From Halorussus pelagicus (GTDB lineage: Archaea; Halobacteriota; Halobacteria; Halobacteriales; Haladaptataceae), in assembly GCF_004087835.1 (NCBI RefSeq), contig NZ_CP035119.1, positions 2,170,001-2,234,000 on the forward strand: a stretch of 64,000 bases of DNA, given 5' to 3'. Under the pieces are notes generated by a model. The model was not told the DNA's origin, did not search any database, and saw only the letters and a list, made by a program, of their open reading frames with translations. The position numbers and the translations under genes are program-made. Of the stretch, positions 7,322-11,380 are shown one piece after another (the first letter of the stretch is position 1; each line of letters opens with the position of its first letter).

Positions 7322-7357
7322 TTAAACGGCAGAACCCGCAACGTATCGAACAAGATG
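7322..7357 (+). promoter_or_regulatory. Putative dnaK promoter
   Basis: TTAAACG at 7322-7328 lies 33 bp before the dnaK ATG, with GTATCG shortly before the start codon as in grpE. A second AT-rich stretch, GATATATAAG, lies about 130 bp upstream of the ATG and could be an alternative TATA element. The nearer element gives a near-leaderless transcript. Confidence 0.45.
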
Positions 7358-9259
7358 GCGAGCAACAAGATTCTGGGCATCGACCTTGGTACCACGAACA
7401 GCGCGTTCGCGGTCATGGAGGGCGGCGACCCGGAGATTATCGTCAACAGCGAGGGCGAGCGAACCACGCCCTCGGTCGTCGCGTTCGACGACGGCGAGCG
7501 TCTCGTCGGGAAACCCGCCAAGAATCAGGCGGTTCAGAATCCCGAGCGCACGATCCAGTCCATCAAGCGGCACATGGGCGAGGAGGACTACACCGTCGAA
7601 ATCGACGGTGAGGACTACACGCCGGAGCAGATTTCGGCGATGACCCTCCAGAAAATCAAGCGCGACGCCGAGGAGTACCTCGGCGACGACGTGGAGAAGG
7701 CGGTCATCACGGTCCCTGCCTACTTCAACGACAAACAGCGCCAAGCGACCAAGGACGCCGGTGAAATTGCCGGGTTCGAGGTCGAGCGCATCGTCAACGA
7801 ACCGACCGCCGCGTCGATGGCGTACGGACTGGACGACGAGTCCGACCAGACCGTCCTCGTCTACGACCTCGGCGGAGGGACCTTCGACGTGTCCATCCTC
7901 GACCTCGGCGGCGGCGTCTACGAGGTCGTCGCCACGAACGGTGACAACGACCTCGGCGGCGACGACTGGGACGAGGCCATCATCGACTACCTCGCCGACG
8001 AGTTCGAGAACGAGCACAACATCGACCTCCGCGAGGACCGACAGGCCCTCCAGCGGCTGAAGGACGCGGCCGAAGAAGCCAAAATCGAACTCTCCTCCCG
8101 GAAAGAAGCCGACATCAACCTCCCGTTCATCACGGCGACCGACGAGGGTCCGGTCCACCTCGAAAACAGCATCACTCGCGCGAAGTTCGAGAGTCTGACT
8201 TCGGACCTCATCAAGCGCACTGTCGGCCCGACCGAGCAGGCGCTCGAAGACGCGGGCTACTCCGAGAGCGACATCGACGAGGTCATCCTTGTCGGCGGTT
8301 CGACGCGGATGCCCCAGGTCCAAGAACAGGTCGAGGAGATGACCGGCCAAGAGCCAAAGAAGAACGTCAACCCCGACGAGGCCGTCGCGCTCGGCGCGGC
8401 GATTCAGGGCGGCGTTCTCTCGGGCGACGTGGACGACATCGTACTGCTCGACGTGACGCCCCTCTCGCTCGGTATCGAGGTCAAGGGCGGTCTCTTCGAG
8501 CGTCTTATCGACAAGAACACCACGATTCCGACCGAGGAGTCGAAGGTGTTCACCACGGCCGCGGCCAACCAGACCTCCGTGCAGGTCCGAGTCTTCCAAG
8601 GCGAGCGCGAAATCGCCGAGGAGAACGAACTGCTCGGCGAGTTCCAGTTGACGGGCATCCCGCCCGCTCCGGCCGGAACGCCCCAGATCGAGGTCGGGTT
8701 CAACATCGACGAGAACGGTATCGTCAACGTCACGGCCGAGGACCAAGGCTCGGGCAACTCCGAGGAGATTACCATCGAGGGCGGTGCGGGTCTCTCCGAC
8801 GACCAGATCGAGCAGATGCAGGAAGAGGCCGAGAAGCACGAGGAGGAGGACCAGCAGCGCCGTGAGCGCATCGAGGCCCGCAACGAGGCCGAGAGCGCCA
8901 TCCAGCGCGCCGAGACCCTGCTCGACGAGAACGAGGAGGAGATCGACGACGACCTCAAATCCGATATCGAGACCGAAATCGAGGGACTTCAGGAGGTCCT
9001 ACAGGACGAGGACGCCACGAAGGACGACCTCGAAGACGCCACCGAAAGCCTCAGTGAGGCGCTTCAGGAAATCGGCAAGCAGATGTACCAACAGCAGGCT
9101 CAGGCCGGTGCTGGCGGTGCGGGTGCAGGTCCCGGCGGCGCGGCGGGTGCTGGACCGGGCGGCATGGGCGGTCAGGCCGGACCCGGCGGTGCGGACGCTG
9201 GCGACGACGAAGAGTACGTTGACGCCGACTTCGAGGACGTGGACGACGACGAAGAGTAA
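7355..9259 (+). CDS. dnaK: Molecular chaperone DnaK (Hsp70)
   Basis: A 634-residue ATP-dependent chaperone. The ATPase domain begins with [14 protein letters not shown] and has [14 protein letters not shown] and [11 protein letters not shown]. The substrate domain contains [14 protein letters not shown]. The C-terminal lid is followed by a Gly/Ala-rich linker and an acidic tail ending in [16 protein letters not shown], as usual for Hsp70 of halophiles. It works with GrpE upstream and DnaJ downstream. Two small secreted-peptide genes on the other strand lie between it and dnaJ. Confidence 0.98.
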
Positions 9260-9406: not shown

Positions 9407-9619
9407 CTATACGCCGGACGCACTCGTGGCTGAGTCACCGGACGTAGGGCACGGAGGTATTATACAGCACTCCGTACCCACGTCCGAATCACTGACCGAA
9501 GTCTCCGGGAAGGGTAGACAGTCGTCCGTTCCGGCGTCGGCGGCCGAAACCGAACCGGTACCTGCGGTGACAAGACACAGTGCGAGTACGAGCGTAATAG
9601 CGAGTCGTTTGACATTCAT
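9407..9619 (-). CDS. Small secreted Cys-containing peptide, copy 1
   Basis: A 70-residue precursor with a classical Sec signal: basic MNVKRLAI, a hydrophobic core, and VSA before a likely cleavage at about residue 26. The mature peptide of about 44 residues is acidic and contains four Cys (DDC, ECC and PPC). The first 20 residues are identical to those of the neighbouring copy, and the two share three aligned mature Cys positions. It lies antisense to, and between, dnaK and dnaJ. It resembles no enzyme. Secreted antimicrobial (halocin-like), signalling or metal-binding roles are possible, but nothing in the sequence decides among them. Confidence 0.72.
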   Translation of the reverse strand: MNVKRLAITLVLALCLVTAGTGSVSAADAGTDDCLPFPETSVSDSDVGTECCIIPPCPTSGDSATSASGV

Positions 9620-9656
9620 TGTCTACCACTCAGCAATAACATCTAGTGGCACAAAT

Positions 9657-9665
9657 ATAAATTTT
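9657..9665 (-). promoter_or_regulatory. AT-rich promoter element of peptide copy 1
   Basis: Read on the minus strand, AAAATTTAT ends 37 bp before the ATG of the first peptide gene. The same nonamer occurs at exactly the same distance in front of the second copy. The 13 bases just before the ATG (TGAGTGGTAGACA) are identical in both. Confidence 0.55.
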
Positions 9666-9803
9666 ATTCATTGCAATATCTGATAACTCTCGTCGCGGCG
9701 ACGACCACGAGAGTTGACGCGAGACTACGAAGTTCGTACAGCGGTCATTTTCTGATACAGGCCGACGCCGCCAAGCGTCCGAAAAGAGCGTTCTGTGGCG
9801 CGA

Positions 9804-10016
9804 TTACGGCTCGGCGGAGACCGAGTCGTAACACCAACTTCCGCAGATGGGTGTGGTACAGCCTTGAGTTCCAACGTCGGACTGCGTAGTGACCGACGTT
9901 CCCTGCGCGGGCATGCAGTCGTCGGTACCGACGTCAGTGGCGGAAACGCCGCCACTACCGGCAGTGACAAGACACAGTGCGAGTACGAGCGTGATAGCGA
10001 GTCGTTTGACATTCAT
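9804..10016 (-). CDS. Small secreted Cys-containing peptide, copy 2
   Basis: A 70-residue precursor paralogous to the gene at 9407-9619. The signal peptide is identical over its first 20 residues. The mature part, starting around TDVGTDDC, is diverged but keeps the TDDC, SDVGT and a later C-x4-C pair (GC...PIC), then adds GSWC. Duplication includes the promoter and leader, so this is a tandem duplication of a whole transcription unit followed by rapid divergence of the mature peptide. That pattern is typical of secreted peptides under selection, though with two copies this is only suggestive. Confidence 0.72.
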   Translation of the reverse strand: MNVKRLAITLVLALCLVTAGSGGVSATDVGTDDCMPAQGTSVTTQSDVGTQGCTTPICGSWCYDSVSAEP

Positions 10017-10053
10017 TGTCTACCACTCAACAATACGTTATTAATGGATAATA

Positions 10054-10062
10054 ATAAATTTT
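10054..10062 (-). promoter_or_regulatory. AT-rich promoter element of peptide copy 2
   Basis: AAAATTTAT on the minus strand, 37 bp before the ATG, matches the element in front of copy 1 in sequence and spacing. The surrounding 40 bp is strongly AT-rich in an otherwise GC-rich region. Confidence 0.55.
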
Positions 10063-10213
10063 ACTTAACCAGAAATGTAGACGACCCCGGCCGAGTAGTC
10101 GTGCGTGAGGTTCGACGCGGAAACGCGACGTTCGCGCGATTCGCTCGCTTCGCGTCGAGTTCGTAGGAACCCGGTCCCTTCAAGTGGCAGAACCGATTAC
10201 GAAGGCACAACGA

Positions 10214-11380
10214 ATGAGCGAGGACTTCTACGACATACTCGGCGTGAGTAGGGACGCCGACGAGGACGAGATAAAATCTGCCTACCGCGACAAGGCGACC
10301 GACTACCACCCCGACGTGAGCGACGACCCGAACGCCGAGGAGAAGTTCAAAAAGCTCCAGAAGGCCAAGGAAGTGCTGACCGACGAGGAGAAGCGCCAAG
10401 CCTACGACCAGATGGGCCACGAACGGTTCGAGCAGGCCGAGAAGCGCGGCGGCTTCGACGGCGGGGCGGGCGGCGCTGGCCGCGGGGGTATGGGCGGCGG
10501 CGGTCCGTTCGGCGGCGGCATGGGCGGCCAAGGCGGTATGGGCGACATCTTCGAGCAGTTCTTCGGCGGGGGCAGTGGCGGCGGCCGGTCCAACCGCCCG
10601 CAGAAGGGCCAAGACCTCCGGACGCGCCTGACCATCGACCTCCAAGACGCCTACGAGGGCGTCCAGAAGCAGGTCAGCGTCCGGCGGCCCGAGCGCTGTG
10701 GCGACTGCGACGGCGAGGGTCACCCGCCGGGCACCGACTCGAACACCTGTCAGGAGTGCAACGGTCGGGGGCAGGTCACGCAGGTCCAACAGACCCCGCT
10801 CGGGCGCGTCCAGCAGACCCAGACCTGTCGCCACTGCGGCGGCGAGGGCGAAATCTACGCCGAGACGTGTTCGACCTGTGGCGGCGACGGCACGGTCCGC
10901 AAGGAAGCCACGCTGTCGGTCGAAGTCCCGGCGGGCATCCAGTCGGGCCAGAGCCTCCAGATGGAGGGCGAGGGCGCGCCCGGACCCAACGGCGGCCCGA
11001 ACGGCGACCTGCTCATCGAGATCGAAGTCGAGGACCACCCCGACTTCGAGCGCGACGGCGACGACCTCCGGCGGCAGGAACCCATCTCGTTCCCGCAGGC
11101 GACGTTCGGCGACACCGTCGAGATTCCGACCCTCGACGGCACCGTCGAGATGGACGTGCCCGCGGGCACCCAGAGCGGCGAGACGTTCCGCCTGCAGGGC
11201 AAGGGGATGCCCCGCCTCCGACGGCGCGGGCAGGGCGACCTCTACGTGCAGGTGCAGGTCGTCACCCCCGACAACCTGAACGACGAGCAGAAGGAGGCGC
11301 TCCAGCAGTTCGCGGAGGCGGGTGGCGAGGAGGTCAGCGTCGAGGAAGGCTTCTTCGAGAAAATCAAAAACTCGTTCTGA
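10214..11380 (+). CDS. dnaJ: Molecular chaperone DnaJ (Hsp40)
   Basis: A 388-residue type I J-protein that delivers substrates to DnaK and stimulates its ATPase. The J domain (MSEDFYDILGV through about residue 70) has the HPD triad in TDYHPDVS. Next comes a Gly/Phe/Met-rich linker, then four zinc-binding CxxCxGxG repeats (CGDCDGEG, CQECNGRG, CRHCGGEG, CSTCGGDG), then the substrate-binding C-terminal domains. I chose the ATG at 10214; a GTG at 10184 would add ten residues with no family match. Confidence 0.97.
   Translation: MSEDFYDILGVSRDADEDEIKSAYRDKATDYHPDVSDDPNAEEKFKKLQKAKEVLTDEEKRQAYDQMGHERFEQAEKRGGFDGGAGGAGRGGMGGGGPFGGGMGGQGGMGDIFEQFFGGGSGGGRSNRPQKGQDLRTRLTIDLQDAYEGVQKQVSVRRPERCGDCDGEGHPPGTDSNTCQECNGRGQVTQVQQTPLGRVQQTQTCRHCGGEGEIYAETCSTCGGDGTVRKEATLSVEVPAGIQSGQSLQMEGEGAPGPNGGPNGDLLIEIEVEDHPDFERDGDDLRRQEPISFPQATFGDTVEIPTLDGTVEMDVPAGTQSGETFRLQGKGMPRLRRRGQGDLYVQVQVVTPDNLNDEQKEALQQFAEAGGEEVSVEEGFFEKIKNSF

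Follow-up and report, generated by a model that had tools for sequence, protein, structure and literature searches.

The interval between dnaK and dnaJ of Halorussus pelagicus contains on its opposite strand two genuine genes, P1 and P2, for small Cys-containing peptides that are predicted to be exported. They belong to a family that is under purifying selection, is patchily distributed and combines a common leader and TATA-like promoter element with different cores; as far as the tools show, the family is undescribed and nearly restricted to its genus. We tentatively propose, with somewhat less than even confidence, that these are exported peptides encoded at a site of allele exchange, for which an antagonistic role would be most likely.

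Two small genes on the opposite strand

An earlier reading of the window, that is the whole 64-kb stretch of DNA analyzed here, was made from the letters alone (hereafter the sequence-only reading) and described two 70-residue precursors antisense between dnaK and dnaJ. Both frames are found at this place (Table 1), with GrpE, DnaK and DnaJ named as neighbours by NCBIfam. The first 20 residues of the precursors are identical, as had been noted, and so are 57 of the first 60 nucleotides. The three aligned Cys of the mature parts were likewise confirmed, and each mature part contains in addition a fourth Cys at an unaligned place.

Table 1. Features of the peptide genes and their flanks, in positions of the window
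Feature	Positions	Strand	Description or basis
P1 peptide gene	9407..9619	(-)	70 aa precursor; P1-type core, Cys 34, 51, 52, 57
P2 peptide gene	9804..10016	(-)	70 aa precursor; P2-type core, Cys 34, 53, 58, 62
P1 signal segment, codons 1-26	9542..9619	(-)	Predicted Sec signal ending V-S-A; sequence, V24/A26 invariance
P2 signal segment, codons 1-26	9939..10016	(-)	Predicted, basis as for P1; helix 3-20 in the P2 model
P1 predicted mature peptide	9410..9541	(-)	44 aa, 8 acidic residues, 4 Cys, no Lys/Arg/His
P2 predicted mature peptide	9807..9938	(-)	44 aa, 6 acidic residues, 4 Cys, no Lys/Arg/His
dnaK (flank)	7355..9259	(+)	NCBIfam NF001413, 914 bits (cut-off 648)
dnaJ (flank)	10214..11380	(+)	NCBIfam TIGR02349, 438 bits (cut-off 377)
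Putative TATA-like promoter element of P1, AAAATTTAT	9657..9665	(-)	Sequence conservation
Putative TATA-like promoter element of P2, AAAATTTAT	10054..10062	(-)	Sequence conservation
13-base 5' leader of P1, TGAGTGGTAGACA	9620..9632	(-)	Identical to P2 leader
13-base 5' leader of P2, TGAGTGGTAGACA	10017..10029	(-)	Identical to P1 leader
Conserved block before dnaJ, CCCTTCAAG...	10170..10213	(+)	Likely dnaJ promoter and leader

What distinguishes these frames from open frames arising by chance? Pairwise differences between P2-type orthologues amount to 29, 13 and 79 at codon positions 1, 2 and 3, pN/pS is 0.22 for the P2 type and 0.26 for the P1 type, and the gene frame is the sole frame that is both stop-free and constrained, the others having stops or no constraint. 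Purifying selection acts on signal and core alike within orthologues, and the mature parts are not visibly diversifying. Under a simple rule demanding a signal plus three Cys, only P1 and P2 pass in the window, where Markov shuffles expect 0.05 such frames. It is true that the antisense strand is also partly open across both genes, as chance frames or a non-coding element would allow, but the codon-position pattern, pN/pS, the conservation of Cys and signal across species, the low chance expectation and the lack of an Rfam match rule out a chance frame as well as an RNA feature, and we attach practically no probability to either. RNA terminator structures 3' of each gene score no better than shuffles. 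Among four frames that satisfy the signal-plus-three-Cys rule in 800 kb sampled from this genome, none is similar in sequence, and homology searching found no further copy in this genome beyond P1 and P2; a genome-wide repertoire of similar peptides was consequently rejected.

The N-terminus of the peptides has a charged start (K/R at positions 4-5) followed by a hydrophobic stretch and V-x-A. V24 and A26, in front of the predicted 26/27 cut, and C34 behind it are invariant in 9/9 homologues, including a copy from another haloarchaeal family (G035), and D28 and T31, also past the cut, are invariant among homologues too. From this pattern we infer that the products are exported and cleaved after V-x-A, so that the sequence-only reading of small secreted Cys precursors stands as a prediction, supported by conservation at the same locus in relatives. 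A lipoprotein was rejected, there being no lipobox (the signal ends in V-S-A followed by A/T-D, and the first mature Cys is residue 34), and a pilin-type motif is absent by inspection. AlphaFold, run on a four-row alignment, models a signal helix at residues 3-20 of P2 and leaves the mature part without a confident fold (mean pLDDT 50.6).

Across the homologue set the predicted mature parts are acidic and 44-55 aa long, and all eight Halorussus copies have exactly four Cys in them. Six of these eight follow the spacing C-x17/18-C-x4-C-x3-C, and the two P1-type copies lack the last Cys (C61/62) and have a new one, C51, which results in CC-x4-C. That the even number is kept despite the shift argues for disulfides, most likely two of them, and fits these better than a fixed metal site.

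Both genes are preceded by the identical 13-base leader and by AAAATTTAT exactly 37 bp before the ATG, in agreement with the sequence-only reading. The 9-mer has only two sites in the 64 kb, both strands counted, and the element recurs at -44 to -46 in 8/8 Halorussus copies, with A>G in one and one extra A in another, while the surrounding bases vary. A TATA box at such a distance in an archaeal promoter gives a leader of about a dozen bases, and judged by its conservation AAAATTTAT would be the TATA-like promoter element of each peptide gene. The block before dnaJ is present whether or not the interval contains peptides. The P2-type copy of G014 (L061) begins with ATT, as opposed to ATG in all others, its frame being otherwise intact.

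Distribution and history of the site

The genus set comprised 18 Halorussus genomes, among them Halorussus aquaticus and Halorussus halobius (G015), and the dnaK-dnaJ interval was readable in 17. Conservation at the same locus, proposed as a check by the sequence-only reading, was borne out: homologues occur in 7 of the 18 genomes, the own genome counted, and always antisense in the dnaK-dnaJ interval. The six relatives have one gene each, with open frames of 70-81 codons. Missing homologues or broken frames in relatives, which that reading had named as evidence against its proposal, were looked for, and the frames proved open and without internal stops. G024 has a P1 orthologue (81% identical) and G012, G014 and G026 have P2 orthologues (89-93% identical), all at the same site; G013 is assigned to the P1 type by its flanks. 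Ten of the 17 readable genomes, including close relatives of carriers such as G017, have a dnaK-dnaJ gap of about 60-190 bp without any trace of the peptide. Parsimony on a dnaJ tree, a weak tree in that it rests on one linked gene, requires four changes between presence and absence in the best tree, and at least two are imposed by supported branches.

Outside the genus, one more convincing homologue (G035) came to light among 392 genomes of the order, and no additional one in a further sample of 391 genomes of the class. The G035 homologue (L120, 10683-10862, minus strand) is diverged and has a LanM gene about 0.6 kb away; its frame is shorter than in the family and closely spaced Cys resume just beyond in the next frame, possibly reflecting a frameshift or an assembly error. 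Viral contigs and plasmids contain no relative, which leaves mobile carriage unsupported. The family, which the sequence-only reading could not place, has no counterpart among the known families of the searched libraries: Pfam and Rfam gave no match, NCBIfam and PHROG only insignificant weak matches to P2 that reach no cut-off, and the PDB no relative; searches of the open-access literature, both on Halorussus and on small peptides secreted by haloarchaea, turned up no description of the locus.

How did two genes come to lie side by side in this genome? Comparing P1 with P2, third positions match at 16/19 sites in the leader but at 10/35 in the core (Fisher p 0.0001); the cores are saturated, whereas the leader codons hardly differ, silent sites included. 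Such a contrast is absent between orthologues, from which it follows that leaders have been exchanged or converted between distinct cores. Synonymous constraint as the source of the leader similarity was ruled out, as orthologue leaders are not slower than cores. Moreover, the dnaK side of the interval resembles P1-type genomes and the dnaJ side P2-type genomes (80-84% over about 420-450 bp). The simplest reading of these similarities is that a P1-type allele was joined to a P2-type allele, and simple duplication with subsequent divergence probably did not give rise to the pair. Of the 'tandem duplicated' genes of the sequence-only reading the adjacency thus stands, and the two are probably alleles, single in relatives, that were placed next to each other.

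In G012 and G026 the interval contains a second insertion, a Tat-type precursor of 200-210 aa whose tail is rich in Cys and which in G012 adjoins a 36-bp dnaJ remnant, likely a recombination scar at dnaJ. In H. halobius (L060) the stretch from dnaK to the peptide encodes a Tat-type protein of 482 aa that is weakly similar to Ycf48-like proteins, and grpE is inverted. Since dnaJ keeps its upstream block and the peptides have promoter elements of their own, the chaperone setting is most likely incidental, the gap being just an insertion site.

Possible roles of the peptides

In the explanation we propose, each gene would be transcribed from its own TATA-like promoter into a 70-82 aa precursor that leaves the cell through the Sec pathway and is cleaved behind V-x-A, to yield an acidic peptide of 44-55 aa with four Cys and most likely two disulfides. 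The dnaK-dnaJ gap would act as an exchange site for alleles that share promoter element and leader and differ in their cores, and that may replace one another, get lost or, as in this genome, sit side by side. The sequence-only reading considered an antimicrobial, signal or metal-binding peptide plausible. As the most likely function, at rather less than an even chance, we see a microhalocin-like peptide antagonistic toward competing haloarchaea. Antagonism fits with the patchiness, with type-specific cores on a common leader and with the small size and predicted export of the products, and as microhalocins are not cationic, the acidic charge is no objection. Counting against antagonism are the lack of immunity, transporter or processing genes in the P1/P2 interval, library scans that yielded no sequence match to halocins or to other families of antimicrobials, and purifying selection within the types. 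For the explanation as a whole, the low model confidence of the mature part and the ATT start of the G014 copy are further points against it. A more specific proposal, that the site is polymorphic and joins a constant leader to different cores of Sec-exported, two-disulfide peptides for antagonism or recognition, so that strains differ and some carry two, appears rather unlikely in all its parts.

Could the peptides instead serve the cell that makes them? A small housekeeping or envelope peptide, exported or membrane-anchored and with a stress or surface role, would be consistent with purifying selection on signal and core, with the missing immunity gene and with the adjoining chaperone genes, and patchiness would then reflect neutral gain and loss without conflict. 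This is hard to reconcile with the traceless absence in 10/17 readable genomes of the genus, close relative G017 included, with distinct cores on a common leader and with separate promoter elements that give no hint of regulation together with dnaK or dnaJ, and we regard such a role as unlikely, though worth weighing. Less probable still is a secreted signal, with the P1 and P2 cores as two signal types on a common leader: one locus, a conserved leader and type-specific cores are as expected, but no receptor or sensor gene is linked in the intervals examined and both types occur together in one genome. Metal binding or redox activity through the four Cys, present in every Halorussus copy, is similarly improbable; one Cys moves between the types, which makes metal binding less likely, conserved His ligands are missing and the PDB holds no relative.

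That the peptides are class II lanthipeptide precursors and substrates of LanM would suit a LanM-rich genus with four LanM genes in this genome, known to produce archalans (PMC10105419), and the position of the sole distant homologue near a LanM gene. The LanM census nevertheless makes it very unlikely: the intact peptide gene of G012 occurs in a genome without LanM (no DUF4135 match), presence of the peptide and presence of LanM do not track, no LanM lies within the dnaK-dnaJ interval, and the LanA-like frames at an own LanM locus (L134) have hydrophilic acidic leaders and no Sec signal. Catalogues of the small peptides that archaea export are poor, and few genes for halocins have been described. 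A family that passes the comparative tests, is missing from the Pfam and NCBIfam models scanned, stays at one place in the chromosome and has a core for each type offers a concrete and cheap test of whether swappable secreted peptides serve archaea in competition. The locus also indicates that a gap between chaperone genes can host allele exchange with the dnaJ promoter spared.

Comparison with known systems

With microhalocins (HalS8, HalC8 and others) P1 and P2 would have in common small size, export by a haloarchaeon and non-cationic charge. HalC8 is Cys-rich. Known microhalocins are below 10 kDa and not cationic (PMC11509114). A microhalocin would be secreted by a haloarchaeon and inhibit other haloarchaea; P1 and P2 have predicted mature parts of 44-55 aa and, by sequence, a Sec-type signal. 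The HalC8 precursor is Tat-exported, has 283 aa and includes the immunity part HalI together with the 76-aa C-terminal halocin (PMC11509114), unlike the precursors described here, which have 70-81 aa and only a Sec-type signal, without a twin-arginine/Tat-type layout or an immunity part.

The archalans alpha and beta, class II lanthipeptides made by Halorussus (PMC10105419), are likewise short ribosomal peptides of the same genus that contain Cys, Thr and Ser and consist of leader and core. A class II precursor would be expected to have a LanM synthetase in its genome, usually adjacent, and a soluble leader free of a Sec signal. The locus of P1 and P2 has no LanM, their leader is a hydrophobic Sec-type signal with a V-x-A site, and carrier G012 is devoid of any LanM. 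In this genome, two tandem 50-aa LanA-like frames near one of the LanM genes (L134, 6359-6511 and 6671-6823; G000:C1 about 1987.4-1987.8 kb) are likely lanthipeptide precursors with acidic leaders. G024 has seven DUF4135 matches (contigs C1, C4 and C6, e.g. L124), apparently representing six LanM genes, one of them matched in two pieces.

The haloarchaeal Tat-type Cys-tail precursors share with P1 and P2 predicted export, a Cys-rich C-terminus and, in G012 and G026, the same interval, but they have 200-330 aa, a twin-arginine-type signal, a long middle domain and no sequence relation to the peptides. This family was found in 27/392 genomes of the order with up to four members per genome (G012:C1:1964316-1964915, G026:C3:124079-124678, own G000:C1:1846631-1847161 and others; L100-L119). 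Its precursors, roughly 200-330 aa long, combine a middle domain that is conserved with C-terminal tails that are Cys-rich and hypervariable, and the members read have a Tat-type signal, a layout like that of halocin C8 precursors; Pfam and NCBIfam give no match for the G012 member. Finally, and by analogy only, with cores under purifying selection within each type, P1 and P2 resemble bacteriocin-type precursors in that the leader is conserved at the nucleotide level and the core differs by type.
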